Below are positions 39,661-63,827 of a stretch of DNA of 64,000 nucleotides, in pieces (the stretch's first letter is position 1; each line of letters begins with the position of its first letter). Made by a program: the position numbers and the translations under genes. Under the pieces are notes generated by a model, which saw nothing but the letters and a program-made list of their open reading frames with translations, was not told the origin of the DNA and made no database searches. Where the stretch lies: assembly GCF_000003815.2 (NCBI RefSeq), contig NC_049997.1:6473204-6537203 (forward strand). The letters are read 5' to 3'. This DNA is from Branchiostoma floridae (lineage: Eukaryota > Chordata > Leptocardii > Amphioxiformes > Branchiostomatidae).

Positions 39661-39865
39661 TCCCCTTTCCTCTACTTTTTTCTGCAAATAAAAAAGGTCA
39701 ATGACCTGTACCAGACAGCTGTCACCATGGTTACTGGAGGTGTGTCAAACATCCTGTGGTACCGTTGTTACATAATGTAGCAACTGGCAGCTAGGGGAGA
39801 GTCAGAGGGGCTAATGTCTTCATACACATCAAATTTGTTTATAAAGACCATATTAAGGTAAACCA

Positions 39866-41188
39866 ATGATTCTTACCCCACCTTGGGTGATAAACATTGT
39901 AAAGAAAGAAATGTTTACTTTCCTGTGGAATGGTAAAAAAGATAAGATTAAAAGAGATGTTGTTAGCCAACCTATTGAGCAGGGAGGATTAGGCCTGACA
40001 AACTTAGATCTCCAAAGACAAGCCCTACTTGCATCCTGGATACCAAGATTAGTGACAAATGACAACGCAAGATGGAAAGTTATTGCGTTAACATTTATAA
40101 ACTCCCTTGGTCAAGACAATTTGCTATTGCATATGAACTTTACTTCTGATAAAGATGGTCCTGACATGAGTAAATTCCCCACATTTTATAAACAGGTAAT
40201 ATCAGCCTTCCACTCTGCTGGTGGAGGAGGTAAGAACAAACCCTCTAGTGTAAGTGAAATAATGGGTGAAACTATATGGTGCAACAAATATATAAGGTCA
40301 CAAGGTAAAACAATTTTCTTCCCAACCTGGATAAAAAATGACATAATATTCGTAAAAGACATTTTCCCCTTAGACAGGTTCATGTCTCTAGATCACTACC
40401 CTCAGCTTAACCTTAACACAAGACCTAATGGTATTATTGAATATATAACTCTGTTTCAAGCTATACCTCTTACATGGAAGAATGCAATAAGAAACCATAG
40501 AGGCCCAATTCCTTATCGAAGATTAGAGCTTAACACCCTTACCCCACGTATATTTGATGGTAAAACAACAAAACAAATCAAAAGCAAGAACACCTGCAAA
40601 TTGTTTTATAATGCATTAGTGCAGGCACAGGCCAAGGAACCAACATGCTGTAAAAAATGGCAATCCACATTTCCTACTGAAACCCTGGCTTGGGAAAATA
40701 TCTGGAGATGGTTAAGCACACAGACCTGTATAGACACTAAGTTAGCAGAGTTAAACTACAAACTATTACACCGAATATTACCATGTGCACACAATCTGCA
40801 CAAATGGGGTATCAAAGATGAAACGGGACACATATATGATGCAACATGTACACTATGTAGCAGTGGAAGCATAGAAGATTATGAGCATATGTTCTTTAAA
40901 TGTGAAAGACTGTGTAATTTCTGGGAATTAGTGAACACATTTGTACCCTTGCCCAACATAAAAATTACTTTGCAGGAGATTTTATTTGGAAAAATTGATC
41001 ATTTGATAACTGCTAAAGACCAGAAAAATAGAACCTTTACTATTACTGTGGCTAAATGGACAATCTTTAAAACTTGGATCTGGCATAGAAAAGACCCACA
41101 CCTGTGCATTACTAGCCTCTTTAATGTCTTTGAAAAGGACTTCGAAGAACGGATATCCCATGATAGACTGACAGCCAATGTAGATTGA
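39866..41188 (+). CDS. L1/Tx1-type ORF2 C-terminal fragment, 440 aa
   Basis: No stop across 440 residues. The start has FLWNGKKDKIKRDVVSQPIE and GGLGLTNLDLQ, the segment after the RT palm in L1-clade elements. Near residue 330 a CX2CX9HX4C cluster (CTLC..EHMFFKC) matches the L1 C-terminal cysteine motif. The endonuclease and catalytic FADD are missing, so the product could not retrotranspose on its own. The first ATG is probably not a real start. Confidence 0.85.
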   Translation: MILTPPWVINIVKKEMFTFLWNGKKDKIKRDVVSQPIEQGGLGLTNLDLQRQALLASWIPRLVTNDNARWKVIALTFINSLGQDNLLLHMNFTSDKDGPDMSKFPTFYKQVISAFHSAGGGGKNKPSSVSEIMGETIWCNKYIRSQGKTIFFPTWIKNDIIFVKDIFPLDRFMSLDHYPQLNLNTRPNGIIEYITLFQAIPLTWKNAIRNHRGPIPYRRLELNTLTPRIFDGKTTKQIKSKNTCKLFYNALVQAQAKEPTCCKKWQSTFPTETLAWENIWRWLSTQTCIDTKLAELNYKLLHRILPCAHNLHKWGIKDETGHIYDATCTLCSSGSIEDYEHMFFKCERLCNFWELVNTFVPLPNIKITLQEILFGKIDHLITAKDQKNRTFTITVAKWTIFKTWIWHRKDPHLCITSLFNVFEKDFEERISHDRLTANVD

Positions 41189-43923: not shown

Positions 43924-46900
43924 ATGGCTGAAAAACGGCTGAAGCAGGTATGTTATTTGTTTTTATTTTTCTGTTGTTTTTTAAATTTCTTTTATTCTTG
44001 TGCGTAGGTCAAACTGCTGTGGCAAGGTAGCTTCCTCAACCCATAGAAAGCTTCCCCTCGGCAGGGTTTGAATTCGAAAATAGTAGAGAGCATTAATTCT
44101 ATATTTCATGATAATTTGTTTGATGTTGTAGCAATGATTGTTTGTGTACTAGCACTTCATTGTATGCGGCAACCTCTTGTTGATCTTACATATACATACA
44201 ATATTTACCTGTTTGTACTTATCCTATTATAAAAATTCTTGCAGTTGCGACAAGTACTAGACTGTTTTGTTTTACGATTGTTTTGTTTTTAACTTTCACA
44301 TTTGTCAATCAACTATTTTTCTATCATTGAAGATTTTTCATATAATATACATTTGTCCTGAATGACACTTGATAGCTTTTGCCAGGCAAGCGTAAGCTTG
44401 CGTGGCTAAAAAGACAAAATAAGTGCCCGTCAGTAGGAGAGGGGTACGACTACAAGCGTTCAATGCCAGTCTGACGTCGTATACATATCTACAACAACAT
44501 TTAAATGCGCCGCCAGTGTACCTTTGGGCACAATTTTTTTGCTAGTTGTGGAACGGCACCAGGACTGGTGTTCAGTCTGTATCTATACTGCACTACAGGC
44601 CACTACAGTCGCTCGGCTCGTTGGCTAATAGTATGTTATTTCTGTTGTTCTTTTGCTTTTGTTTTATTCAAATTCATTTAAAGAGCATCAGACAAAGAGC
44701 ACATATGCTTATATGAGTCTTCTGCTCAATAAAACATAAAAAAAACATAATAGACAGAGTCAACAAAGAGAACTTATGAACGAACTAAAAACAAGATAAC
44801 GGCAGTACAGACACAAGGCCGCAATTGAATTGAAATAAGTGAATCGTCCAGTCTTTGAAATGTAACATTAGTTAAACAAATGGTTAAGAATTTGACAGTT
44901 TATGGATTGTGGGAGGGAAGGGCTGTCGACGTCCATAAGCAGTAGGGTACAGTCAGATGAAGTAAGGGGGTCAGATGAGAGTATTTTTTCTAGGTTTTAT
45001 CTTCTCTCCCCCTTTATGCTAAGATTTAGAACTGTGCCAATGTGTGTCGTTTTCTGTCACAATTTCATCTTCACCATTGACGTATGGGATCGTGTGGCGC
45101 AATCATTAAGGTGTTTGACCCAGACCCCAGAAGTAACGGGTTCGAAACCGCTGATGTGTCACCGATCTTGTGCCCTTGGGAAAGACACTTTACACGACAT
45201 TCCCCACTTCACTCAGGTTAAAATGAGTATCTGGCTTTGGTTAGGGCCATCTCTGGATAGGACGTTAAATGGAGAGCCACACCTCGAGCACTTAGAGAAA
45301 AGAGTAGTGGTCTTCCACGGTGTGAGTGGTTCAAAACCACTAGTCCCATGGTTGAACCTGGGGCAATTACTGTCGTATTGAGGTCACCTGAGTGGCGCTG
45401 AATGGCAGCTCGCTCCAGACCTTTGAGATTTAGCCCGCCTATTGTAAGCTCTGCGCAATTCAGCCGCTGGCTGCGAAGAGAGAGTAACAATAACTATTAT
45501 TATTTGTGTGGCCAGCTTTTTTCAAAAGGATTCGTTATTGATCTACAGACACTGTGTGATGCTGCTGAACGCGGTGATACAGTCAGAGTGAAGCAGCTGA
45601 TAGAGGAAGGAGCCAATCCTAATAATGCTGCTGATGACCATTTGGTATGTGACATCATGTCCTCTGTCCTCTGATGCATTTTGTAGATTTTGTTTGTGTC
45701 TGACACATGACAATATCATGATTTCAACTATCTTCGAATATGTCGGGACATGGCATCATAATCATATAAGGGGGAATTATAAGGGCGAGACTAATGCATG
45801 TATGTAAACACCATGCATCATGTTGTAATACTTGTGATTGATTGATTGATAGAAAAATAGAATGATAGAAGGTAAGAAATGTGAACAAACGTGTTTTTCA
45901 GTAGTCAATGATGCAAGACAATACATGATACATTAAATGATGTCGATACAATGCTTTGAAACTTCCTTCACCCTCTCTTATTATCTTGTAATACATGATA
46001 CATTTACACTGTCTACACTGTTACGCTAAATTGAAGACCATCTAACTGTTTTACAGAAAAGGACTCCCCTGCACCTGGCAGTTGAGAAAGGGCACCATGA
46101 AACTGTATCAGCTTTACTGGCAGCTGGGGCAGATGCGAATATCCAGGACTATGAGGTGTGTAGATTTACTGTCACTTTTCCCTTTAAAAACAGCATGTGT
46201 GATGTCACATTGATCTTTTCAAAGTACTTCCAACAGAATCATAGTTGCGATGTGTACGTGAATGTGCAAGTTGTGGAACGGCACCAGGATTGTTGTCCCT
46301 TAGCTTTTCACCGGACAATCTACCGTTACTCTCAAGTAGACTGAGACGGCTGTAGTCTCATTTATTGCTGAGACTCTCCTTCCAACTATCTTCAAAAACT
46401 CAGCCTCTAAGATTGCTTTATTTCTCTGGAATTGATAACTTTGTTCCTAATAACACTTTCATACACGTTGCGCCTTTAGACAGGCAGTCATTGGCCTACA
46501 TTTTTAATCAATTTGTCTACGATGTTTGACAAATTGTCGTGCAATTATCCGGCATTGGTGAATTTTCGATGGACTAATAATTGAGTAAATGGGAGCCGGT
46601 TGGGGATAGCTACAGACAGATGGAATATTGCTGTCACATATGGTCTGAAGCTTCCCAGAGCTCCCTAATATGTCTCAAAAGAGTACAAAACCGCGTACGG
46701 AATCATGTTGGGAGTGACTTGTTCACTACATTACAACCCCTCTCTCAAAGACCTAACTTAGCAAGCCTGGCGCTACTCTACTTCAATGGTAAATGCTCAG
46801 CAGAACTTCACTCTCTCGTACCTCCACAAGGAAGGACACGTTTTGACACTTCCACGGAAGCAAATCATCCCTTCTTCCTCCATAAGTCACCTCTTAATAG

Positions 46901-49900
46901 GAAGTCCAACGCCGATACTTTTGTTCCTAGAACTACATCATTTCGGAACAAGTTTCCACGGGATTGTTTCCCTTTGGGGTACAATCTAAACGTTTTCAAA
47001 TCAAAACGTCTGTCGTCATAATTCTGTGAAGTAACGAAAAGGTATGAGAAGCTCCTTAAGCCTTGTTTAGTGGTGAACCCTAAGCATAAATTAGATTGCC
47101 TGTTGTGATACATCATATTTTCCCATTGTACCGGTGCCACGCATAATTTCACATACATCTTGTGAAGCATCAAGTTAACTATAATGTATCAGAAAAGTTT
47201 GTTTTTATGTCACCAATGCAGCTGTACTTCGGTCCATCCTGTTGCCATACTGACTGTCATCTGTTCTATTTTACAGCAAAGAACTCCCCTGCACCTGGCA
47301 GCTAAGAGAGGCCGCAATGAAACTGTATCAGCTTTACTGGCAGCTGGTGCAGATGTGAATGTACAGGACAGGCAGGTGGGTAAAATTGTGGTTGTGTATC
47401 ACATGTTGCAGTGGTATCATGTGAAATTCCACTTTCCATAATTTAGTTGGATATTTCATATAAGTCATTTAATTCCAATTCAACATCATTCTGTACTTCG
47501 TTTGTGCGAAGTTTGTTCCCAATTATCAAAGACCACCTGATCTGTTTTACAGCAAAAAACTTCCCTGCACCTGGCAGCTGAAAAAGGCCACCATGAAACT
47601 GTATCAGCTTTACTGACAGCTGGTGCAGATGTAAAGGCATGGGACATAAGGGTAGGTTGATTGATTGTTGTAATACAGCACATATTCCTGCAACTTCAAG
47701 GAATATTTTACAATGTCACTATATTTCGTTATGATTTTCTAGAGGCAGACTCCAAGTAAACTACAATGTATCAACAATATTGTTATATTTCATTCCATCG
47801 AGTTGTCCTACCGTATGATGTTTTTCTTTCACGGCAAAGAACTTCGCTGCACCTGGCAGCCCTGTATGGCCACCATAAAACTGTAACAGCTTTACTGGCA
47901 GCTGGTGCAGATGTGAATAGACATGACACGTTGGTAGGTAAATTGACTGTTGCAATACAGCACAATGCCCCTGTAACTTCAAAGAATATATTACAATGTC
48001 ATCACTTTTGTAGAGGCGGTCTAACTGAAGGCAATGTATCAAATTTGTCACTGACACAATTGTATGTGTTTTACAGCGAAGAACTCCCCTGCACCTGGCA
48101 GCTGAGAATGGCCAACATGAAACTGTATCAGCTTTACTGGCAGCTGGTGCAGATGTGAATGGAAGGGACAAGTGGGTAGGTAGATTGACTGTTGTGATAC
48201 ATGTTTGTATTTTTAGCTTCGCCAAGAAGATTATGTTTTTGCCTGACTTGGGTCTGTATGTAGGTCAACAGGATATAACTCGAGAAATTGTGGATGGAAC
48301 TTTTTTTATTTTTTGCAGATGTGTAGCGGTTGTTGAAAGGCATGCCTAGTTCGAAAATGGGTTACCTGGCGTTTTCCTACGGTACATTAGCGAGCTTGGT
48401 ATTTTTTTTTGTTTTTTCGGGAAGCATAAGTCAAAATGTAGCTGGGCGATTTCCACGATATTTGGCAGGTGTTTAGCGCTTGTGGAAAGGATTGTCATGT
48501 GCAAGAATGGTTTAGCTACCTTTTACCTATGGTGCTGTAGCTGGCTTTGTATGTAAGTGCGTTTGTCTGTATGCAAGATAACTCGAGATGTTCTTGATGG
48601 ATGCTAATGATATTTAGTTGATAGGTAGGGGACACAGAAAGGAAGGTCAAGTTCGATAATGGGCCTCCTGGCGACTTGTTTTGGTACTGCAAGTGAGCAT
48701 CAAAGTTTGCGCCTAAATTTTCCAGAAGTGCCAGGTTCATGATTTTTTAATGGTGGATAGCTGTTGGTACTAGGAGTCAATGGTCTAATTTTGGGCCCCC
48801 TAGCAGCTTGTTTGGAACTGCAGTGGGTCTTATAGTTTGTAGCTTTTAAGAAGGATAACTGCAGAGGAGATTGATGGATATTTTTTGTTTTTGGTAGCTA
48901 GGTACTTTGGTTGATTATCAACATCTATTTGATATAATTACTTAGGGAAAGTTATCCAATTAACAGAAATAAACAGTGTTTTCTATATACAGATGCATCT
49001 CATTTTGACCTATATTTAAGGACACAGCTGTTTGCCAGATGTTTTGCCTGAGAAGCCTTGTGACCTGGACGCCCTAACACTGTGAAAATCCTCTTGACAA
49101 GCATGAAATTCTGATTGACCAGGGATGCTACCACTGAGGTCATCTTTGGTCACAGTCCAATGCCCCCTATCATCAATACTATTAGGCCAGGCTGGAGTCT
49201 GGTAGAGACTACATGATTTTAACAAAGCACTATGAAAGTTGCGCTAGAAAGTATCACAACAGTGTACATAATTCCATTGTCACCAGTTGGCCAAGAAGGT
49301 TATCTTTGGAAGCATTTGTGGGTTTGTGAGGAACACAAGTTCATGCAGTCATCTGCTATTTTGGTAGGTACTATTTAGTAATACATGAAAAAGACCTTAA
49401 AGTATTAATAAAGGCATGATTATTTGCGAAGGGATGTGTTCGATGAACTCTAGTTCAACTTGATCTTGTATAGGTAGTCTTAATCAGCTGCAAGTTATAG
49501 TACGAATGCCTCGAGTAGAATCAAACTCCAGTCTGTCCTCATGACACGTGTTATACAGAAAATGACTCCCCTGCACCTGGCAGCTGAGAATGGCCACCCG
49601 AAAACTGTATCGGCTTTACTGGCAGCTGGTGCAGATGGGAATGTACAGGACGATGAGGTGGGTTCATTATTTTTTGTAGGTTGACCGTTGCTGTGCATCA
49701 CATGTCCTTGTACCACAATAGTATACATGATCAGTCTCATGTATGATGCAATTTGATAATGTGCGCATTTCCTCAAACAATATGTCACATACGGTATTCA
49801 TTCCATGCTGTTACCATGCTGAACAGTTAAATTCTGTTGACTGCCATACTGAATACGATATGAAATGTATTACAGCGAAGAACTCCCCTGCACCTGGCAG

Positions 49901-52900
49901 CTGAGACTGGCCACCATAAAACTGTTTCAGCTTTACTGACAGCTGCTGCAGATCTAGGTGTGAAGGTACAGGACATGTTGGTAGGTTGAATGACTGTTGT
50001 GTTGGCTCACTCGTTTCTATATCAGCATGTACATCGGTATGATTTTTAATACATTGATCTTGTAGAGGCAGTCTGTCAGCTGCAATTTAGTAAAAATGCC
50101 TCCTACAGAATTATACCTAAAGTATGTCTATCCTGACACACTGAAGACCACTGACTTTTCCAGCAAAGAACTCCCCTGCGCCTGGCAGCTAAGAGAGGCC
50201 ATCATAAAAATTTATCAGCTTTACTGGTATCTGGTGAAGATGTGAATGCACAGGACAGCGTGGTAGGTGGATTGACTGAAATGTTTTGGACTATACCACC
50301 TTGTAAGTACAATTTAGTGAAAATGTAAATGTCTCAGACTTAACGTAACTTTAAACTTTTGATACTTTACATTATGTAATGAAATGATATCTAAATATTT
50401 CAAGGAGACATAAAACGGTTGTAGTTAAGACAAAGTCAAAGACATTAAAACTACGACGTGGGTTAAAAAATACTCTAGTTATGAAGTAAAATCCAATGTA
50501 TGTTCTCTGTTGTATGACATTTTGCAAATAATCATGTCATTACAGTCATCATGTAAAAGTTCATATTTACCTTGATCATAAAACATTGTCAGAAACCTAA
50601 ATGTACTAAAGTCCAGCCTGCCAATATGCTGAAGAGATCTGATGTGTTTTACAGCAAGGAACTCCGCCGCACCTGGCAGCTGAGAAAGGCCACCATGAAA
50701 CTGTATCAGCTTTACTGGCAGCTGGTGCAGATGTGAATGCACGGGACAGGCAGGTGCGTGGATAGACATGTTGTGCATCACATTATCATGTGAAATTTCA
50801 CCTTCATTTTCACTTGCACCTTTAAGTTTGATACAAAATAATTTCATAATGTAATGCTGAAGACCATCTGATGTGTTTTATAGGGAGGAACTCCTCTGCA
50901 CAGGGCAGCTGAGAAAGGTCACCACGGAACTATATCAGGTTTCCTGGCAGCTGGTGCAGACGTGAATGTACAGGACACATTGGTGGGTGGATTGGATATC
51001 ATACAAAATGTGCGATACAACCTTTACCTTGAATCACCGCTAATGCCATGTTGAGTTGATTATATTGACGATATCCTCTGGCTCTGGCGACCCCAAAACA
51101 AATGATCAGGTCGAGTTTCATGTATGCACCAGGACCTGAACCCGACCTAGACCTGAATTTTCAGTATCGGTACACACTCCTACCAACAATAGATTTTTTA
51201 GTTTAAATTGTTCTTTTACGTCTTTTCTTTTACTTGAGATTTACTTTGTCATACTATGGCATTTGTTATTTGTTTACAGATATTTATTTTTCAATCTACT
51301 GCATATATTTTCCCATTCTACAGCTGCTTTGTACGATTTACAGAATCAAAAAAAAATTATACGCGCGGGGATGTCATGACTTCGAAAACAATACACAACA
51401 CTTAGGTTGAAAATGTAGAAAAAAGAACATGGTGATCTTTAGAAATGTTCAATGTCAGTAATGTTCATAAGCTATGATTGATTAAAAATACATGTGAAGC
51501 CTATACTAAGGTCATATTGCAAAGCATTGAGTCCACCTTTGGGGGCTTCGTCCAGCCATAGTGGACGCTGTCAAAATCTAACTCAACAACTAAAATGTAT
51601 ACAAATGCCACTGACACATTTTAGTCTGTTCATTCTGTTGCCATAATGAAGACCACCTGATGTGTTTTACAGCAAAGAACTGCGCTGCACCTGGCAGCCC
51701 TGAATGGCTACCATAAAACTGTATCAGCTTTGCTGGCAGCTGGTGCAGATGTGAATGTACATGACTCTGAGGTAGTTACATTTATTGTTGTCATGGTAGC
51801 CACGTGTCATTGTAATACATGCATTAGTATCATATATGATATAATTTAACCCCATCTAGACTGGCCTATTTTGACCCCCCCTCGTAATTTCAAAACGGCT
51901 TGGGTTTGCAGACAATGATGTGCTAGTAAAGTTGAATATTTGTTTTTGCAATTTTGGTGTCAATATGACGTAATATCACGTAAGTATGACGTCATCATGC
52001 AATTTTCTGGGCTAAAAACCGTTTAGATTGGGAATTTCCGGTATAGTTAATACTTAATGTGTTTGTTTAATGCATTTAAGGGTATATTATTGATTGTATT
52101 TTACCTTTGCTAATAAAATGTTGCGCCATTTTGGATTTTGACCAATGACGCCATCAAATTAGCAGCATAAATTATGAATATCTAATCATAAATGTAACAT
52201 ACAATTACATAAGATGTTAATAATATATATAGAGAAGTATGTGTGGTCTGGCAACAAAACCTTGAAACATCATTATTCAAACTGAAATTGGTAAATTTGG
52301 TAAAATAGAACTGTCAGAAACCCGTTGCCATGTCAAGATTTTTTGTACAATTATTTCCAACAATATCTTAGGAAAGTCACAAAGTTCCGTAGTCCTAGTC
52401 GTTCGGCAGTTATACGACGTCAAAGTTGGCGCAGGCACTTTTAGCCTTCCCCCGTCTAGCTGGGGTTAACAACGTAGGCGTTTTTTCAACCAGTGTGGTG
52501 AATCACATTTTTCTGAAGACATCTGTTTTACCGCAAGAAACTCCCCTGCGTGCAAGATTCCACGCTCATTTTGTTGTCTCTGAGTCAGATATAATTTAAT
52601 GAAAATTCCTCAGAAATAACGTTATTAGTTTTAACTTTTGATACTTTCATTACGAGGCGACATGACATCGAAAGATTTCAAGTAGAAATGAAAACAACAA
52701 TGTTGGTCTTAGCTAAACTTCCGGATTCCCTCCCTCTCGACTTTGAGAAAGAGCCTGTTCAGAAGTACTGTGGTATGACGTTTACAAATAATTCTGTCCT
52801 GTGAGTCATCATGTTAGAATTCATGTTTGCATTGAGCAGCATTGTCACCAAACTAAATGTGCTTCCGTCCATCCTGCCAATTAATATACTGAAGACATCT

Positions 52901-55900
52901 GATGTGATTTACAGCAAGGGACTCCCCTGCACTTGGCAGCTGAGAAAGGCCACAATCTAATTGTATCAGCTTTACTGAAAGCTGGTGTAGCTGTGAATGT
53001 ACGGGACACATGGGTAGGTATATAATGTATTCATGTAGGTAGGTTAATACACTAGACTGGTATAATCAGTTCAGTTCATCATCGGAGAGGTGACACCAGA
53101 GAGGAAAACGTCAACTATGACAAACTTAGAAAACTTGGTCCTTCGGCTTTGTTTTCATTATGTTTTTCCAGTGAGGCTTAGTTTTTCCAGTGAGGCCTAT
53201 TTTTTTTCAAATCCGAGAACCAACAGATTAAATGGTGTGGCCCTAATTCTCTCTCTCTATAGGCCAACTGTAATGTAGCAAAATCAGTCAATCCTGGTTA
53301 AAGGAAGACAATTGATATTTGATTTTTTTTACAGCAAAGAACTCCCCTGCACCTGGCAGCTGAAAAAGGCCGCCATGAAACTGTATCATCATTAGTTACA
53401 GCAGGTGCAGATGTGAATGTACAGGACCATGAGGTAGGTAGATAGATAGACTGTTGTTGTGCCCATGTTACACTGTATTATCATGTGAGATTTCATATTA
53501 AGTTAGATATTTTAATACAAAATAATGTAAATGCAATCAATATTTGTATTGTACTCAACTCTGCATGTTGCCATACTGAAGACTGCTATGTTTTACATGC
53601 AGGGAAAAAGTCCCCTGCACCTGGCAGCTGAAAAGGGCCACTATGACACTGTATCAGCTTTACTTAGAGCTGGTGCAAATATGCATATACAGGACAAGTG
53701 GGTAGGTGGATTAAATATCACACAAAATATGATATGCAACCTTTATCTTGAACTACCAGTAAGACATATTTATTATTGATATTCATTTTTATGTGTGACT
53801 TTAAAAAGAATACATAACACTTGTCATTTGAGGTGCAGAAAAGTGGAGCAATTGAAGATCTTTAGAAATGTTAAATGTCATTAGTGATGTTCGCAGCATT
53901 AGATGTGATTGATTGATTGAAAATAATTGTGGAATGATTGTAAACTTAAAGGTTTTGCACAGCATTGATTCCACTTGGGAACGCAAACAGTTGGGGGCTA
54001 GTTGCTTCTTGCCACAGTGGACTTAACACCTCTAGCTATATCTGATCACCTTACTGTTGTTGAACTCAAACTGAACTGTAGTTTTGAAGGAAAAGTTGTG
54101 AAAAATGTAGACTGACCAAGGTTTCCAGGCCACAGTGGCAATTATTGGCCTGGCCTTCCAGTGTCCGATAATTCAGTGAAATACAGCCTAATTGAGCAAA
54201 CATCATGCAAAATTGGACTATGATCAAATTCACGTGTTAGTAGAGGTTATTTTGTTTTATGTTCACTCATGGACTATATCAATGTCTTTGGTTCACCGCA
54301 ACACTGCCTTATAACAGATTACAAGTACCCATACCACTTTATTTTTTTACATTTAATGAACTTGACAGGAACATGGTTAGATGGTTCAGTTAAAATTTGC
54401 TACGTCCAGTTTAATTCGGGGCTCCCAGTTTCATTCCTAGAGTGACCTCCCAAATCTCAGCAACACCGTTCTCTTATCATTTTTACAATCAGCAAATCTG
54501 CGAAATTCCGATTGTCGTATTTTGTACAGATCTGCTCGAGTCTTCACTGGAGCGGTGTCTTCTCGGTAATTTACGAATCCGTTAAGTCCGAGGGTTATAC
54601 ATAATTGTAAGTTTCCAATGGCTATGCGTAATTATGCATAAGGTTCCATGGGTCATGCATGCTTATGCTTGTGCCAAGTATTATGCATAGCCATTGGAAC
54701 CTTATGCATGGTTATGCATAACCCTGGAACCTTATGCATTGAATATGTACAGTTATGCCAATTTAGACTAATCCCCAGGGGCTCTTTATTGGCTGCTACG
54801 TATTTCTTACACCGATTTTACTTACAGCTTATGATATCAGCCCACCTGGGTGTATGGCTGCTGAGATAAGGGTATAAGGGTGGTCACTACAGAATAAATC
54901 AGGAACTCCCGAATTAAACCGGAGGGTGTTTTGACTGTTCTTAGACATATAAGTTCTAGATACACTAGTTTACGCAATGAATCATTCACGTTTCACGAAG
55001 CAAGTACAACATATTTCAAAAGACTCGATGCTACAGACAGATTTACACATTCATTAAGATGTCAGAACTCCAATAATGCAAAAATAGGCAAATGCGTCAA
55101 GGACTGCTTTGCTATTAGAAAGAATATTGAAGCTAATGGTTAGCCTACTTCATTATGATGACCATGACTATATGAAGACCATCTGACATTTTTTTCAGGA
55201 AAGGACTCCCTTGAACCTGGCAGCTCCAAATGGCCACCATAAAACTGTTTCAGCTTTACTAACAGCAATTGGTGCTGGTTTCAACATATTAAGTCAAGTT
55301 GAGGTATGCAGATTGTCTATTGTGGCACATTGTACATCAAACTCATTTTACTGTATTTGTATTGTGTACTTTCACTTCTGTGCTACTGTTGACATTGGCA
55401 TGTACAGTATACAAACATGTACATCACTGTGTATACTAAACATTACTATTGTGCAGAAAAACTCTCTCCTCGTCAGTGCAGCCAATGACGGTCACCATAA
55501 AACTGTATCAGCTTTACTGGCAGCTGGTGCAGATGCGAACACATTGCCACAAAGTGAGGTATGCTGACTGGTGATTGCTTAATGCTTTGGTTTAAGTGCT
55601 ACTGGCCTATGTTGACACTGTCAACAACACTAACATGACATTGTTTATTTAACACTGTCTGTATTTGTGCACATCTATGCTACTATACTCAAGACTATCG
55701 TATTTGTTTTACAGAAACACTCTTTTCTGATCAGTGCAGCTAAGAATGACGACCATAAAACTGTAAGAGCTTTACTGGCAGCTGGTGCGGGTGTAAATGT
55801 ACAGGACAGGCAGGTGGGTCGATTGACTGAAGATTGACTGCTCCTCACGTCTACTAACACTGTCACCAATAATGCTTCTGAGAACCAGTTCATCCTGGTG

Positions 55901-58900
55901 TCTTACCGAATACCAACGAATGCCTTTTAAAGCAAATGACTTTCCTCTACCGGAAAGCCAGAAGGGCACGTCTTGTGTAGTCTGATGTAGACTTCTAATC
56001 TCCCTCCTTGGTACTGCAGAGACTCAGAAAAAAAAAACTGCAGTGTTCTTCTCTAAATATTCATCATCTTCTTCATCAGAAAAAAACACAAAAAGCACAC
56101 GTCACCTGAAAAAGTAAAGAAAATGATATATTTTATATATATTTTTGTAAAATTTGTCAACAAATGTATTATTTTCAGAAGAACACTGCAGTTTTGTGAA
56201 CTTTGATAACCATTTTTGATGTGAATATTTGTATCGATGTTCCACCTATGTTTATGAAACAATTTTTTGCAGAATTTAGAATAATTAGAATTCTCATGGA
56301 CTTCTTTAGCCAGTTTACAATTCAAGAAGAAATTTTCCGTGTGTGTAATGTGCAGCCACAGTTAAAATCATTATCTGTTCAAGACTGTTGTTTCATGTAT
56401 ATTGAAAACATGTTTTAAAAAGACACTCCAAGACACACCAATACTTGCTACACCATAAACACCATGATGGCTGGGACCAGACTGAGGTCTCGTAGTTTAC
56501 GTTGAATTTAGGTGGTGATTTTATAGTACCACCATGGTCTTTACGTCGACTACAATGTAAAAAAAAATGTCACCAGCACAATTCTACTTTCTGTTACCAT
56601 ACTGAAGATCACCTGATGTGTTTTACAGCAAAGAACTCCCCTGCACCTGGCAGCTGAGAATGGCCACCATAAAACTGTATCAGCTTTACTGGCAGCTGGT
56701 GCAAATGTGAATGTACAGGACAAATGGGTAGGCATAAAAGAATTGTATTCATGTAGATTGACTGAAATGTCGTGAATCACATGTTCACCACTGTACCGCA
56801 CGTACACCATGCTTGCGTTCCCTCACATTTCCACTTGTTAACACATCTTTTGTAATTCTAGTCAATTACATTATGTACATAAAAAATGTCACCAACAATG
56901 TACTTCAGTACGTCCGGTACCATTGCCATTCAACTTTTTGAATCGCATCTAATGTGTTTTACAGCAATGGACTCCATTGTACCGGGCAGCCCTGTATGGC
57001 CGAAATGAAACTGTATCAGCTTTACTGACAGCTGGTGCAGATGTGAATGTACAGGACAGACAGGTAGGTAGAATGTCTGTTGTGATACATGTGTACAGTA
57101 TACATCACATTTTTCCCACTGGACCGCTATGTATGATTTCTCATTAAGCTTTAGTACAAAGCTAAAGTTTTTCCAACACAAATTTATACATGGATCGGAT
57201 TTTCAAGGACCACTGTCGCATTCTTGAACATCAATACTGATGAACAATCACTTCAGAACGTAAACTTACAAGAGTTACAAACACGTGATCTTATTGACAT
57301 GTGGTCTTCCGGAAACGTGACGTCAGCAATTGGTCAACCGTACCAGGTTGTTTCTAACTCCACCGTCTCTGTTCAGTGATGGCTGGTGTGCCCTGATGTA
57401 TATGGCCTCCTTTATACCTCTCATAGAGTGTTAAGGAACCAGGTTATCCATTCAAAGTGACGTTCTTTCTACTAGGGCAACTCGCCTTCACTGCTTATAG
57501 TTACACAAAAAGATCTCCTGTCTTCCTCGAATCGTCTTTTGATTCTTTGCTCTCCTGGTCTTTTCGTTGTCACACATAATCACTTCTTCTTACACGAAAC
57601 ACATGAAATACACTCACACTCACACACGTTTTCAGGCATGCATCGGCATTACGCAACCATCAACGTATAATTACGAAAAAAACACTCTTCACGAAACCAA
57701 CTTAATGAAGTATAAACATCCACTGCAAAATGTAAAAAAGTCACTAGATTCATTGTCTTCGAAAGACCTACGAACATACCAAATATCAAAACAGTCCATC
57801 CAGACATACCCCGGTTATCTTGCGGACAGACGACGACCACCCGGACATAGAAACAGTAATCGCTAAAAATACGTTTCAATATATCAAGAATGTCCTTAAC
57901 GCAATTGTACTTCATTCCATCCTGTTGCCATACTGAAGACCATCTGACGACTGTTTTACAGCAAAAGACCCCTTTGCAACTGGCAGCTTGGAATGGTCAC
58001 CATGAAACTGTATCAGCTTTACTGACAGCTGGTGCAGATGTGAATGTACAGGATGATGAGGTAGGTAGACTGTTGGGGTGCATCACGTACATTTTGCTGA
58101 CTTTTATCATGTGAGATTTCACTTTAATTTTGTAGTTTGGTATTTAATGAAAAGTCATGTAATCAACATGCATAGTCCACCCTGTTTCCATAACAAAGAC
58201 CACATGATGTTTTTTTCAGCAAAAGACTCCCCTGTATTTGGCAGCTGAGAGAAGCCGCCATGACACTATATCAGCTTTACTGACAGCTGGTGCAGATGTG
58301 AATGTACAGGACAAATGGGTAAGAAATGTGGTAAAATGTGGTGATTCACATGTTCCCCAAAGTACCACATTCACCATGCTTGCTTTCCCTCGCCTTTGCA
58401 CATCTTTTGTAAGTCTAGTCTACATTATGCATATAACAAAATGGAATAGAATGGATGAGATGGTAGGTAGAGCTACATTATTTTATTAAAATGCCTCCGA
58501 CAGAATCATTCCCTAATCTATTCTGTCATACTGCAGATCACTTGTAAACTACAGTACATTCTGTTGCCATACTGAAGACCATCTGATGTGTTTTACAGCA
58601 AAAGACTCCTCTGCTTCTAGCAGTTGGAAATGGCAATCATAAAACGGTATCAGCTTTCCTGGCAGCTGGTGCAGATGTGAATAAACAGGACGATGGGGTG
58701 GGTAGGTTGACTGTTGCTTTGCATCACATGTTCCGGTACAAGTGTTTCAGTATCATGTAAAATGTAATTATATAATTTATGCATTTCTTCAAACAGTATT
58801 GTCACATTTTAAGTCATTCAGTCCATTCTGTTACCATACTGAAGTCATCTGATGTGTTTTAAAGCAAAGAACTCCCCTGCACCTGGCAGCTAAATATGGC

Positions 58901-61900
58901 GACAATGAAACTGTATCAGCTTTACTGGCAGCTGGTGCGGATGTGAATGTACAGGACGGGCTGGTAGGTTGAATGACCGTTGAGTTGCATCACTAGTTTT
59001 GTTCCTATACCAGCATGTATTTTGTTTTCACTTGGATCTTGTAGAGGTAGTCTCAATTATCTGCAGTTCAGTCAAAATGTCTCTAATAGAATTAACATTG
59101 TACTTCAACTTATTCTACCATATTAAAGACTGATCTCTTTTGCAGGAAAGAACTCCCCTGCACCTGACAGCAGAAAAAGGCCGCTGTAAAACTGTATCGG
59201 TTTTACTGACAGCTGGTGCAGATGTGAATGCACAGGATGGGCAGGTCGGTGGATTGAATGCTTACAGCACATGTTCCTGTACCTTTAAGGAATATTGTGG
59301 AATTGTCATAAATTTTGTACGGTCGTTCTAACACAGGTACTATGTATAAAAAAATGCCACACATTTGAACATCCTATGGCAATACCGAAGACCATATGAC
59401 TGTTTTACAGCAAAGGATTCCCCTGCACCTGAGAATTGCCATCAATTATATTTACAGCTGGTGTAGATGTGAATGCATGAGGTTGTGTACCAGTTGCAAT
59501 TGTTATCTAATTTGATAATGTAGTAGTATTTCCTCAAACAGTATTTCCATGTAAATCAGTGTGTTCTGATGACATACTGAAAAGATCTGATGTATTTTAC
59601 AGCAAAAAACTCCCCTGCACCTGGCAGCTGAGAATTGCCACCCTGAAGCTATATCAGCTTTACTGGCAGCTGGTGCAGATGTGAATGCAATGGACAATAA
59701 GGTACTTTGAGAGGTTTCAGCTCTAGATCTGTACTTTCTTGGTTCTGCAATTGCAATCTGTTAACAATGCATGTAATGTAAGATATATCGAATTCTTACA
59801 CAGCCATACTTTGCTTGAAGGTGTCATATTTTTTCAGGGTAATTGCCCCCTTCATTATGCAAGGGCAGAAGATTACTCAAAAAAGTGTGTGAAAGTACTG
59901 CTGCAACATGGAGCTGATGAACATGGCCAGAAGGAGGTACATTTATTTATTGAGCTTTTACTAAAAGTAACCTTTCCATAGTCAAGGAATAAGCATACAA
60001 ATGCTACTTCATACACACAAAAAATCAAAATAGTTTTGCCAAAAACAATAGAGGAAGTTCTGGTAAGGTGGTTTCTGCTTTCCTTGCTTTTAGGTAGGCT
60101 TTATCTGGAAGAACATTAGGCCATACCAAATTTATTTGTTGCTTCTCTGGTGTTTTTTAGAAAATAATTGGACAAACAGGTCAAAACAAAAAATACAAAT
60201 ATATTTTTCACAAGGTCTGGGGCTTATTATGACAATAAATAACACAAAATGACACGTTTACGCAATGCATCCCTTACATTGATTTGTTACTAATGTTCTG
60301 AATGAATGCACTGTTTTCAGACCGAAATTTTGTGGCTCTGAATACCAATATTTACAGGTTGGTGATATCAGAATGTGAATTATTGTAGGGGAAACGTTTT
60401 TTATTGTTTTGAAAAAAATGACAGTTGGGTTCGAGATTCAACAAAAAAATTGTGTGGCTTTAAGTTTTTAGAAAAGTCAGACTCTATTTTTAGAAGATTT
60501 TGTTCCCCATCTTACACTGAGATTTATTCTCATTAATCTCAACTCAGGAAACGTTTCTCGTGCCACCATCATTAAAATTATGTATATTGAATGACCATTT
60601 ATATTTCTCTATGTTAAACTAAATATATCATGTAGTGTTATTCAAGACTCAAAAGAGACTACCCTTTGTCTGGTAACATAACAATTAACAACCTCTCATT
60701 TTTAGGACAGATGCAAAATGTCATGTAATCGTATGGCATATGCCATTCAGTAAATCTTCAGTCATTTGTGATAAAAATAACACGTTTAGATCGTAGTTAT
60801 AAAAAAACATGCTTTGGGATGCCAAATTATCTGTGCCAAAAATTTCTAAACTAGAAAAATTGCCAATCGTATCATTTCAGCTCCAAAAGAGACAACTGAC
60901 AGATGACACAGGCGAAGCAGAGAGCAAGAAGAGTAGCGGTATTGGTAACAATAAAACTTTTTTTAACGAACCAAACTAATCAATCAATAATTTCTTCTGA
61001 AATAGATTGGTAGTAGAATATAGATTCTGAAATCTAGAGATAGATAAGAACCAGGTTAATCATATTTGTACATTATCTTCTAAGAAGTTAGTGGAGTCTA
61101 AATTATGCTTTCCTGACAATCAAGTTAGCTTGTTCATTGAATGTCAGATATTTTGATTATTGAAAATTATTGAAACTCCAGTCATTGTTAACCTTTATGC
61201 TAGCTCCCTTCCCCTTCATAGATATTGTCGTTGGATCATTTCTACATATGAAAACATCATCACGATGGTAACTCTTCTAGACTTGGAGCAGATGCTGGGC
61301 ACAATTCTCAGCCGGCTGGAGGAGACAGATGTAAGGCTGCTGATGCGGGTGTGGTCTGCACGTACCGGTAAACAGGAAATTCCACGGACAGAGGCACCAG
61401 TTGACGTGATGAAGGGCATGATGAGGAGTGAATACATCACAACAGGTGTGCATCCATTTTTTTCTAAGGCAATCAACAATTATACTGAAGTTGTAGTTGT
61501 TGATTTCAGATATGCACAAACAAATTCAATTTGTAAGACAATGTTACCATTTCAGGAGACCTCAGAATCCTGCAAAAGGACATGGTAGCAGCTGGGATCA
61601 GCTTTCCTGCGATTGTACGAAACATTCCAGGTAGCTCAACTTTGGTTACTAATCATATCTCTGTTGGAAAGAACTATGAAATGCTATGTACTTCAGGCTA
61701 AGATAAATGTGAAATCAAACAAAACCAAGAATTCTACGACCTCCGCCAAATGATTTCGAGTAAAGTGTTAATGTTGTCCAGTGATTTTTCAAATATGGTC
61801 CTCATTTGCATAAATTGTCATAGTTGATCATCTTCTCCCCTCAACTAGCGTAAATTGTTCAAATTATGTAAGTCGTTCCTATAAATTTAGTGTTTCGTCA

Positions 61901-63827
61901 TAAATTATGTGACTGTGACAGTGGTTTGCTTCATTTATGTATAATAGTGTTCACATTCATGCTGCAAGTGATTTCCTCCTTTCCTTCTAATGTGAAATAG
62001 CCCTCTTGGATCATGATTTACATTGTATGAGCTGTACCGTCATTGTCTATTTACAGCTGCTTGCTACCATTGGGAAGTAACAATAAGCTTTGAAACATTG
62101 ATGATATAGTAATGGTTTTGACTTGCTAGCTAACAGATTGGTGATTATAAAACCAACGTTTGATTATAAAACCAACGTTTGACTCAAATATTGTGTTTGT
62201 TTTCTAATGAAGATGCCAATGTCTTGTAGGTGTACCAGAAGAATTGAAGTACACAAGGACATTAGAGGCTACAGTTGGACCCACAGGTGGAGAGTTGGAG
62301 ATTTCTGGGTTTGTCAAACTTGTCGTACCACCAGGCGTCCTTCAGCAAGACACAATGGTAACCATCTCAACTGTAGATGTTGCGGCTATCCTCAGGGATC
62401 CCGAGAGCGTAAACTGGCTCTCCGGCTATCCCTGGTCCCTGGGTGAGGATGTCTGTCCTCGTGAGCTACTGGATCAGGTGCTGTTCTCCCCAGCTGTTGA
62501 TATTAACCTACATGGTGCACAGCTGAGTGGATCAGTGGAGGTGCAGACATGGCGACCTCCAGGTTCTGAAGGGATGGAGTGTCGTCTGCTGAAGCATCAC
62601 GATGAGGAAGGCTGGAGGGATGTCACAGCTTCAACTATTTTTCAAGCATCTCAGGAGAAAGTGTCAATTTTTCAGTACACCTTCAGCCCAGACATTATTC
62701 TCTGGGTTTCTGTGCCTATTGTAATTGTAGTTGGAAAGATGATGGTTGAAGCACTATCATCAAGAACTCTGGATTGCCATTTTGCAGCATACACCAAGCC
62801 TGGTACAGATGATACACAATTTCACGTTGTCTGTAGAGATCGGCGCGTTGAGGCAGATGATTATCTCCCAGGCTTCACCATGTGTGGCAGCAATGCAGCA
62901 ATGTTCGATCTTGTGAATGGGGATATACTTGACATTGCAGTAAGTGTCCGAGGAGGACAAAGCCATTCCAAGCAGATGGAATTACGGTCCAAGCAGTGCC
63001 GTGACAAAAACGGCCAGAATATACAACTCTTGCTGGACCGACTTAATGGAAACCGTGTTAAGGGCGAGGTGGATGTCAAAAAAGTTCAAGTGCCATTAAA
63101 TCGGACTGTATGCCAGTTCATTTTCAAGGAGGTAAAGTGTGATATAAGCAGATGATGAGTCTTTTTTCAGTGAAGGCTGTTGATTGCATTCTGTTGAATG
63201 TCACTAGAGTGTATTTGACCTTCCCTGAAACTGAGATTATGTAACAATATGCAACAAAGTAACAAAGTGCAGAAAACGATAATGTTAATGATGACGCCAG
63301 CAAACCACCTGTGCAATTACATGCTTACACCACACCACACTATAGTTTCAAATAACGCCATGTTCTTATCATTTTATCAATATCACTCAGAATCCGTATT
63401 TGTTATTTCAGGAAGGTGGTACCTTGCAACGTAAGTGTACATTGTTATTTGAGCCATAGATTTCTTGACAATGTTATGAATGCTTGTAGAAAATTGACCA
63501 ATCTTTGTCAATTTACCTTTGATTTGTACTAAAAGGGTTGTTCAAGTATGTATAAAATTTGAAATTTTAATATGAATGAAAGCTTTTTTCTGAATTTTCA
63601 CTGTTTCTTAATAATGTTTGGATGCTTGAATTTGCCATTTTACGCACATATTATAAGGGGACGACAACTATACACCAACAACAAAAGCCCGATCTTGTAA
63701 AAGATCTATCATCGACCCTGAGCCAGCTACGGTGCCAAGAAAGAAGAGGAGAAAATCGGGACGTCAGAAGAGAGATGATGGAGCAGGCCCCAGTGGTGTC
63801 AGGTTGGATTCAGGAGCTACAGGTTAA
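43924..63827 (+). CDS. Ankyrin-repeat/ZU5 protein, about 35 exons, about 1367 aa
   Basis: Exon 1 is 43924-43947 (MAEKRLKQ), exon 2 45549-45644 (divergent capping repeat). Single-repeat exons start at 46057, 47277, 47553, 47835, 48077, 49559, 49876 (105 nt), 50164, 50655, 50884, 51673, 52915, 53335, 53603, 55199 (105), 55457 (102), 55715, 56629, 56965, 57962, 58220, 58599, 58865, 59146, 59603 and 59838; all others are 99 nt and all are phase 0. The consensus is TPLHLAAEKGHHETVSALLA then AGADVNVQD. Then come linker exons 60881-60944, 61281-61445 and 61556-61630, the ZU5-containing exon 62230-63131 (GFVKLVVPPGVL), a 19-nt exon 63412-63430, and a last exon 63658-63827 with a basic PRKKRRKSGRQKR. 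Ankyrin repeats bind proteins; ZU5 occurs in ankyrins, UNC5, PIDD and NLRP1-type proteins. The exon at 47835 lacks an AG acceptor. The last two exons are less sure; reading through 63131 gives a stop at 63155. Confidence 0.88.
45086..45507 (+). mobile_element. tRNA-derived SINE in intron 1 of the ankyrin gene
   Basis: The head has GTGTGGCGCAATCATTAAGG (box A region) and GGGTTCGAAACCG (box B). Next comes a body with 'cttgtgcccttgggaaagac' and 'ggttaaaatgagtatctgg', then a tail ending in 'aataactattattattt'. It lies about 40 bp before the exon 2 acceptor. Confidence 0.8.
46581..47024 (+). pseudogene. LINE reverse-transcriptase C-terminal fragment
   Basis: The open frame includes LEYCC-like MEYCCHIWSEASQ, LKRVQNRVRN, a middle segment, FVPRTTSFRNKFPRDCFP and YNLNVFKSK, ending in a stop. 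This is the thumb and tail of a CR1/Jockey-like RT. It sits in the intron between ankyrin exons 3 and 4 and is 5'-truncated. Confidence 0.78.
48210..48900 (+). repeat. Diverged tandem units in an ankyrin-gene intron
   Basis: Units of about 150 bp share 'aactcgaga', 'gatggat', 'gaaaggaaggtcaagttcga' or 'gaaaggcatgcctagttcga' and 'gg.cctggcg..ttgttttggtactgc'. About four copies, origin unknown. The rest of this 1.4-kb intron (to 49558) shows nothing else. Confidence 0.6.
51772..52914. other. Long ankyrin-gene intron with a truncated repeat-exon
   Basis: Contains the start of a former repeat-exon at 52534-52550 ('caagaaactcccctgcg') after a T-rich tract, but the acceptor is 'accg' and the rest is lost. 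No other feature recognised. Confidence 0.6.
54613..54740. repeat. Interleaved inverted repeats built on TTATGCAT
   Basis: 'ccaatggctatgc' (54614) pairs with 'gcatagccattgg' (54684). 'ttatgcataaggttcc' pairs with 'ggaaccttatgcat', which occurs twice more. The block folds into several alternative hairpins. Origin unknown, MITE-like size. Confidence 0.65.
54931..55143 (+). mobile_element. Retroelement tail fragment, related to 17640-17860
   Basis: An open frame with FKRLDATDRFTHSLRCQN and KIGKCVKDCFAIRKN. The less decayed of two copies in the window. It lies just before the ankyrin exon at 55199. Confidence 0.5.
55932..55979 (+). pseudogene. Dead ankyrin repeat-exon
   Basis: After 'ttttaaag', the sequence 'caaatgactttcctctaccg' matches the start of the repeat-exons (caaagaactcccctgcacct) but runs into TAG after about 15 codons, with no donor at the expected place. 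Confidence 0.6.
57064..57961. other. Ankyrin-gene intron, nothing recognised
   Basis: Open frames at 57567-57915 on both strands overlap each other and lack splice or family support. Confidence 0.5.
59411..59481 (+). pseudogene. Ankyrin repeat-exon with internal deletion
   Basis: A normal acceptor (ttttacag) and start (caaaggattcccctgcacct) are followed by loss of about 28 nt in the middle. The remaining 71 nt would shift the frame of everything downstream. It is probably skipped or dead. Confidence 0.75.
59937..60880. other. Intron after the last ankyrin repeat
   Basis: AT-rich, no exon or repeat family recognised. Confidence 0.5.
61631..62229. other. Intron before the ZU5 exon
   Basis: A short duplication, 'gattataaaaccaacgtttga', occurs twice at about 62140-62181. 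Otherwise nothing recognised. Confidence 0.55.

Follow-up and report, generated by a model that had tools for sequence, protein, structure and literature searches.

The 64,000-nucleotide stretch of Branchiostoma floridae DNA analysed here (the window, C19:6473204-6537203; contigs of the assembly, which has 513,431,437 bases in 431 contigs, are numbered with a C) contains an array of ankyrin exons, one repeat per exon, followed by a weakly ZU5-like exon and, just past the window, by a Death-domain exon. The array comprises 27 ankyrin exons within positions 45549-59936 (23 measure 99 nt, two 105, one 102 and one 96), all with lengths divisible by three and all in phase 0, exactly as described in an initial annotation of this DNA. 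That annotation also held that exons could be removed without breaking the frame, and all 27 can indeed be skipped in frame. Donors are GT in all 27 exons and acceptors AG in 26 of them. Together with a short start exon they provide 903 stop-free codons, open through 28 exons, and the array matches the Pfam families Ank_2 (E-value, E, 5.1e-198) and Ank (21 stretches passing individually) above the Pfam cut-off.

The conserved intron ends that had been proposed for these exons are real. With the two caps left out, a 27-nt string at the upstream intron end is matched by 18 of the 25 core exons, and a 19-nt string at the downstream end by 19 of 25; these matches reach at least the 99.9th percentile of the controls (2413 AG and 2461 GT sites in positions 1-42000 of the window). 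The single exon without an AG acceptor, at 47835-47933, carries GG in its place with frame and donor intact, which may represent a real loss, a polymorphism or an assembly error. An in-frame fallback acceptor was considered for this exon and rejected, because the exon opens with the codon CAA and neither the closest AG before the splice position nor the one after it is in frame. Lacking an acceptor and an in-frame nearest AG, at least this exon is likely skipped, and it is probably either skipped or dying. A profile scan of 264 kb detected five partial ankyrin copies besides the full ones. One of these lies in the window array and is a dead exon with an internal deletion and stops; the other four lie in a paralogous array on the opposite strand (C19 minus, described below), where one is weak (E 0.024) and one is part of a known damaged exon.

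Self-comparison of the window indicates how this array is likely to have grown. Positions 49548-50278, with three exons, align through their introns with 58588-59260 (70.8% over 746 bp), 47226-48025 align with 58548-59332 (67.8% over 828 bp), and 47258-47959 align through introns with 47534-48201 at a shift of one unit, the duplicated blocks spanning one to three units. Exon identity is 0.79-0.88 in 12 blocks picked from the listed self-matches, some of them overlapping, and third-position divergence in their exons is 0.07-0.34 compared with 0.16-0.29 in aligned intron columns, where gapped alignment flatters identity. Because exons and introns of the blocks diverge to a similar degree, the two were most likely copied together, in agreement with the growth by exon-plus-intron units that had been suggested. 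Unequal crossing-over may have been the route of this growth, and the register-shifted and multi-unit blocks fit it. Introns cluster by array: for 38 of 56 of them the nearest relative belongs to their own array, against 19.2 expected (0 of 5000 shuffles); the weaker result for exons is taken up below.

The pitch of the units is masked by intron insertions, and two long introns contain mobile-element sequence. Most listed copies of the young element at 48209-49455 are 96-98% identical, with 40 of 2967 candidates scored. An older copy of this element family occurs in the C19 minus array (C19:6448441-6449263), and each of the two begins no more than about 30-40 bp past the donor of an ankyrin exon. 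A long intron apparently shared by the C19 plus (window) and C19 minus genes was considered as a common anchor and set aside, since the two carry the same mobile-element family instead.

On the 3' side of the array, a linker is followed by a conserved module without a name, the ZU5-like exon of 902 nt and a second, basic linker, and around these the introns switch to phase 1 (Table 1). The ZU5-like exon has 13 match rows in the genome. Pfam ZU5 matches all four copies scanned with E no higher than 1, the best value being 0.0015, and the same scan listed no UPA domain at E up to 1. A profile of the ZU5-like part, searched against 177635 sequences of solved structures, had no match with E of 1 or less, a result compatible with remote homology. 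A Phe152-Ser153 pair is kept in three of the four paralogs, the copy on C8 having Phe-Cys. Upstream (5') of the copy on C6 (C6:488299-489207) are Roc pieces, weak and below cut-off, and a COR-A domain (E 2.1e-14), and 5' of the C8 copy (C8:7947-8861) is a Death domain (E 4e-5). One and the same C-terminal module therefore seems to follow different front ends, order and strand suggesting that each pair belongs to one gene, and this placement at different loci recalls immune and cell-death adaptors. No NACHT or NB-ARC domain was found in the scanned array, module, ZU5-like and Death exons, a scan that did not extend to linker exons and upstream DNA.

Table 1. Features of the ankyrin-ZU5-like-Death gene model and its introns, in window coordinates
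Feature	Position	Strand	Basis
Start exon, MAEKRLKQ, phase-0 end at GT donor	43924-43947	+	inferred from frame and donor
Ankyrin exon 1, N-terminal cap, 96 nt	45549-45644	+	similar caps in C19 minus and C172
Ankyrin exon 2, 99 nt	46057-46155	+	GT/AG, phase 0
Dispersed mobile-element-like piece in intron	46620-47091		matches dispersed element
Ankyrin exon 3, 99 nt	47277-47375	+	GT/AG, phase 0
Ankyrin exon 4, 99 nt	47553-47651	+	GT/AG, phase 0
Ankyrin exon 5, 99 nt, acceptor GG	47835-47933	+	GT donor, phase 0
Ankyrin exon 6, 99 nt	48077-48175	+	GT/AG, phase 0
Young mobile element, most of a long intron	48209-49455		genome copies
Ankyrin exon 7, 99 nt	49559-49657	+	GT/AG, phase 0
Ankyrin exon 8, 105 nt	49876-49980	+	GT/AG, phase 0
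Ankyrin exon 9, 99 nt	50164-50262	+	GT/AG, phase 0
Ankyrin exon 10, 99 nt	50655-50753	+	GT/AG, phase 0
Ankyrin exon 11, 99 nt	50884-50982	+	GT/AG, phase 0
Ankyrin exon 12, 99 nt	51673-51771	+	GT/AG, phase 0
Ankyrin exon 13, 99 nt	52915-53013	+	GT/AG, phase 0
Ankyrin exon 14, 99 nt	53335-53433	+	GT/AG, phase 0
Ankyrin exon 15, 99 nt	53603-53701	+	GT/AG, phase 0
Ankyrin exon 16, 105 nt, donor GTATGC; alternative 99-nt reading with donor GTTGAG possible	55199-55303	+	
Ankyrin exon 17, 102 nt, first helix degenerate	55457-55558	+	GT/AG, phase 0
Ankyrin exon 18, 99 nt, first helix degenerate	55715-55813	+	GT/AG, phase 0
Ankyrin exon 19, 99 nt	56629-56727	+	GT/AG, phase 0
Ankyrin exon 20, 99 nt	56965-57063	+	GT/AG, phase 0
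Ankyrin exon 21, 99 nt	57962-58060	+	GT/AG, phase 0
Ankyrin exon 22, 99 nt	58220-58318	+	GT/AG, phase 0
Ankyrin exon 23, 99 nt	58599-58697	+	with exons 24-25, block resembling 49548-50278
Ankyrin exon 24, 99 nt	58865-58963	+	self-comparison block, GT/AG
Ankyrin exon 25, 99 nt	59146-59244	+	self-comparison block, GT/AG
Dead ankyrin exon, inside intron	59412-59480	+	profile scan, E 1.5e-7
Ankyrin exon 26, 99 nt	59603-59701	+	GT/AG, phase 0
Ankyrin exon 27, C-terminal cap, 99 nt	59838-59936	+	C19 minus and C172 have a similar cap
Linker exon, phase-1 end	60881-60944	+	frame/splice model
Conserved unnamed module, first exon (DLEQMLGTILSRLEETDVRLLMRVWSARTG...)	61281-61445	+	no Pfam match
Conserved unnamed module, second exon	61556-61630	+	no Pfam match
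Weakly ZU5-like exon, ~300 aa	62230-63131	+	Pfam E 0.0043, 17.7 bits, cut-off 21
19-nt exon	63412-63430	+	inferred from frame and splice sites
Basic linker exon	63658-63822	+	frame/splice model
Death-domain exon, locus L023	~64169, just past the window	+	Death E 7.1e-15

The window array is one of a family with members on C19 in both orientations, on C172 and on C176, and fewer matches are listed for C9, C4 and C191. The C19 minus paralog, head-to-head with the window gene at a distance of about 64 kb, shares its module and ZU5-like exon and also has a Death-like match (35% over 80 aa). It contains both cap types (the first only as a 24-residue match) and 12 intact core repeats, a further exon being damaged, so repeat number differs between the paralogs (27 in the window, 12 core repeats plus two caps in C19 minus), as the exon gain and loss envisaged in the initial annotation would predict. 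Both cap types also occur on C172 (the N-terminal one as a 26-residue match), together with 10 core exons in one run and more after transposase-like open frames; these frames (L011 and L012, C172:728456-731320) lie inside the ankyrin array and presumably represent a hAT element. The C-terminal module was not found at C172 in the 120 kb read, which include 5026 N. The possibility that C172 represents the second haplotype of the C19 array was rejected, as the flanks mismatch and the best listed array alignments to C19 plus are at about 68-82%. The best unit pairs reach 87.6% in C19 minus and 86.6% in C172. On C176, 49 near-full-length matches to a model of its own exons occur within 18.5 kb (three pieces), with none in a further 10 kb. 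Further single-exon ankyrin matches were seen at C176:224800-286500 and C176:351100-355300, and in the parts read they are more closely spaced than those of the window.

In a tree of 89 exons, which has low resolution owing to its 99 columns, C176 groups apart (3 label changes versus 29.8 when shuffled) and the other arrays intermix (C19 plus 14 versus 20.5, C172 10 versus 11.5, C19 minus 9 versus 10.5; all labels 21 versus 43.2). The C176 donors also fit their own consensus better (10.7 versus 9.2 of 14).

Selection on the repeat surface was evaluated with the ankyrin surface classes found in the accessible part of PMC8415598, where position p corresponds to exon position p minus 1. From 104 scanned rows at five array loci, one with a short flank was removed, as were 14 that were of odd length, had no donor or scored low, and the remaining 89 exons gave 42 non-overlapping nearest pairs; exon 55199 was entered at 99 nt rather than 105, and exon 47835 was included. 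The ratios of nonsynonymous to synonymous change (dN/dS, intervals in parentheses) come from simple counting, a model that leaves aside recombination and selection on synonymous sites. In the pool of 42 pairs, the pooled synonymous rate gave dN/dS of 2.27 (1.95-2.62) for the concave face, 0.68 for the core, 0.94 for the convex face and 0.67 for basal positions, and random sets of eight positions were as high as the concave set in 1 of 10000 draws. With local synonymous rates the pooled values were 1.48 (1.16-1.95) for the concave and 1.30 (0.92-1.87) for the convex face. C176 alone had concave values of 2.45 at the pooled and 1.73 (1.25-2.52) at the local rate, and the group formed by C19, C172 and C9 had 1.95 (1.48-2.51) at the pooled rate. 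Seven binding positions, which we take to be those randomised in DARPins, gave 2.04 for the C19/C172/C9 group and 2.29 for C176 at the pooled rate, and 1.26 (0.83-2.11) and 1.66 (1.25-2.37), respectively, at local rates. The ZU5-like exon has dN/dS of 0.37-0.51 over six pairs among four copies, calculated with a slightly different formula. At the synonymous rate, the pairs in the two groups of arrays would be expected to show 10.8 and 8.0 stop-making changes, and stops are present in 1 of 103 kept exon rows, a count that the scan itself biases downward. The claim of a concave-face excess stands for the pool and for C176; for the array in the window it is unproven.

We lean, with modest confidence, towards a single gene encoding an intracellular receptor or adaptor with repeats, in which block-duplicated ankyrin exons, with concave-face change across the family, are coupled to a ZU5-like and Death-domain output. 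We infer that the gene is expressed as modelled, that it recognises non-self or variable-self ligands and that it signals through the Death domain. The 27-repeat ankyrin solenoid would be the recognition part of such a protein, and the ZU5-like module and Death domain its signalling part. Because the interior repeats are self-contained phase-0 exons with common intron ends, they could be gained, lost or moved harmlessly, and misaligned recombination between units would add, remove or move whole repeats with the frame intact. The distinct first and last repeats would cap the array, and the interior would have been duplicated in blocks, partly lost (the dead exon and the one lost acceptor) and diversified. 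Selection would preserve the ankyrin core and, across the family, alter concave-face residues; unit turnover and concave-face selection would then result in a changing binding surface with a constant Death-domain output. Germline turnover would be the main source of diversity, with splice variants possible. A more ambitious version, which we offer only tentatively, is that an invertebrate chordate maintains whole families of such arrays as a germline and perhaps splicing diversity engine for receptors. Exchangeable one-repeat exons would evolve a variable concave face under diversifying selection, with the output preserved by the capping repeats and by a ZU5-like/Death module that other front ends also use, an animal counterpart, built of ankyrin repeats, of the exon-shuffling receptors of brown algae.

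A number of observations weigh against the receptor interpretation. The basis throughout is the genomic sequence of one haplotype, and the Pfam scans exclude DNA 5' of the start exon, where further N-terminal domains are possible. Exons cluster by array less than introns do (28 of 56 versus 19.1 expected; 98 of 5000 shuffles), the similarity of exons and of their flanks is only weakly correlated within the array (546 and 149 of 2000 permutations as extreme), and adjacent units in the window array are hardly more alike than distant ones. Exon trees therefore give no clean record of unit history, and the weak correlation, together with the likeness of neighbours to distant units, suggests that many unit moves are old or overwritten. 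The closest window unit pair of at least 200 bp is at 79.7% over 246 bp, with no near-identical units, so that recent expansion of this array is not indicated. At local synonymous rates the C19/C172/C9 group has 1.13 (0.84-1.55) for the concave and 1.58 (1.13-2.49) for the convex face, so the local-rate concave excess rests on C176. C19 plus alone (10 pairs) has concave values of 1.67 (1.06-2.74) at the pooled and 1.05 (0.59-2.37) at the local rate, with random sets as high in 793 of 10000 draws and convex values of 1.53 and 1.33. When the transition correction is omitted, the seven binding positions fall to 0.92 (0.54-1.67) in the C19/C172/C9 group and give 1.60 (1.09-2.31) in C176. The fast-evolving binding surface initially proposed is thus partly supported, the excess being significant for the pool and C176 and not significant at local rates for the window's group and array. 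Finally, the window copy of the ZU5-like exon falls below the Pfam cut-off, and single-sequence structure prediction of this part had a mean pLDDT (predicted local distance difference test) of 34.4 and was unusable.

Several of these points would also be expected if the gene encoded an old and stable scaffold or cytoskeletal adaptor of ankyrin type, with an array that grew long ago, a fixed number of repeats, and variable positions that differ because each repeat binds a fixed partner of its own. The order of ankyrin, ZU5-like and Death parts recalls canonical ankyrins, identity between window units tops out at about 80% over 200 bp, their group lacks a significant concave excess at local rates, and the ZU5-like exon is under purifying selection. 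We nevertheless regard such a scaffold as rather unlikely, as the repeats are alike at the DNA level in the 12 blocks, a paralog has about half as many of them, the pooled concave excess would be unexpected, and there is a single weak ZU5 part with no sequence match to a solved structure.

By analogy with brown-algal LRR and TPR arrays, the locus might instead be a receptor diversified by splicing, with exon skipping and inclusion producing many isoforms per individual. The in-frame skipping open to all 27 exons, the similar intron ends and the probable skipping of exon 47835 agree with this, but duplication alone would also leave a uniform phase 0, and we consider the proposal improbable. Least probable by some distance is a decaying gene, in which near-neutral repeat divergence accompanies the drift of the array into a pseudogene. 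An overall repeat dN/dS near 1 (1.15, 0.94-1.44, in the C19/C172/C9 group), the lost acceptor and dead exon, and the young mobile element in an intron are what decay would leave; against it, the synonymous rate predicts 4.8 stop-making changes for the 10 C19 plus pairs and no stops occur in the 27 exons, core positions are below 1 in the pool, and the ZU5-like exon is constrained.

The putative receptor has relatives in architecture among known proteins. Canonical ankyrins (ANK1-3) combine about two dozen repeats, many of them in 99-nt exons, with a tandem ZU5-UPA part and a Death domain, and one ankyrin repeat per 99-nt exon is already known from ankyrin genes. The window gene is similar in its 27 repeats and strong Death-domain match, and differs in that its repeats are near-copies and the tandem ZU5-UPA part was not found, one weak ZU5 being present. 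PIDD, NLRP1 and CARD8 are ZU5-UPA proteins that cleave themselves at a Phe-Ser pair in ZU5; here too the ZU5-like part lies between a sensor and a death-fold domain and mostly retains Phe-Ser, whereas the C8 copy departs from it and the ZU5-like part here is known by sequence only. Autoproteolysis of ZU5 is mentioned in the accessible text of PMC8195603, and exon shuffling, according to the part of PMC1553488 available, can account for repeat growth in only some families.

Closer parallels to the mode of evolution come from algae and fungi, as described in the portions of the sources at hand. The LRR-ROCO and NB-ARC-TPR genes of brown algae are candidate immune receptors with one repeat per exon, exon shuffling and diversifying selection, and alternative splicing of their repeat exons has been reported (PMC11378527). 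They resemble the window array in giving every repeat its own exon, with length and phase held constant (here 23 of 27 exons have 99 nt and all are in phase 0), in exon duplication (here of units copied with their introns) and in being candidate receptors with a constant signalling part. Diversifying selection on the repeats is seen here in the pool and C176 and is not significant at local rates for the window group or array. The algal genes differ in the 72-nt, phase-2 LRR exons of the ROCO genes compared with 99-nt, phase-0 ankyrin exons, in having ROC-COR or NB-ARC rather than ZU5-like and Death parts, and in belonging to algae rather than an animal. In fungal NLRs, ankyrin, TPR and WD repeats change in number and show concerted evolution and positive selection, which in the ankyrin repeats falls mostly on the concave face (PMC4986451, PMC1805685); these proteins differ from the scanned exons of the window gene in carrying NACHT or NB-ARC, their repeats are internally highly conserved and population polymorphism has been shown, and the text consulted describes no arrangement of one exon for each fungal repeat. 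The window gene would thus be nearest to the brown-algal receptors in design and to the fungal NLR repeats in evolutionary regime, and we class it with neither. What seems unusual is the combination, in an animal, of near-copy units, paralogs with different repeat numbers, a pooled concave excess and a predicted Death-domain output. No published description of the window array was named in the titles and abstract openings searched, most subscription journals lying outside this search.

Elsewhere in the window, a 932-codon open frame at 26367-29162 contains endonuclease and reverse transcriptase domains and is presumably an element of non-LTR type. A 443-codon open frame at 39857-41185 has a weak zf-RVT match below cut-off, and tandem arrays at 22166-22590 and 35797-36023 consist of similar units of 91-92 bp at both places.

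Lancelets are very polymorphic, with one single nucleotide polymorphism per 34 nt according to the accessible text of PMC12373286, and this makes repeat-number variation, exon choice and ligand binding directly measurable. If the receptor interpretation is true, animals too would place one recognition repeat in each in-frame exon, allowing recombination to remodel the binding surface and leave the signalling part unchanged. The several array loci would serve as natural replicates, and the diversification of invertebrate intracellular receptors would become testable in a chordate.

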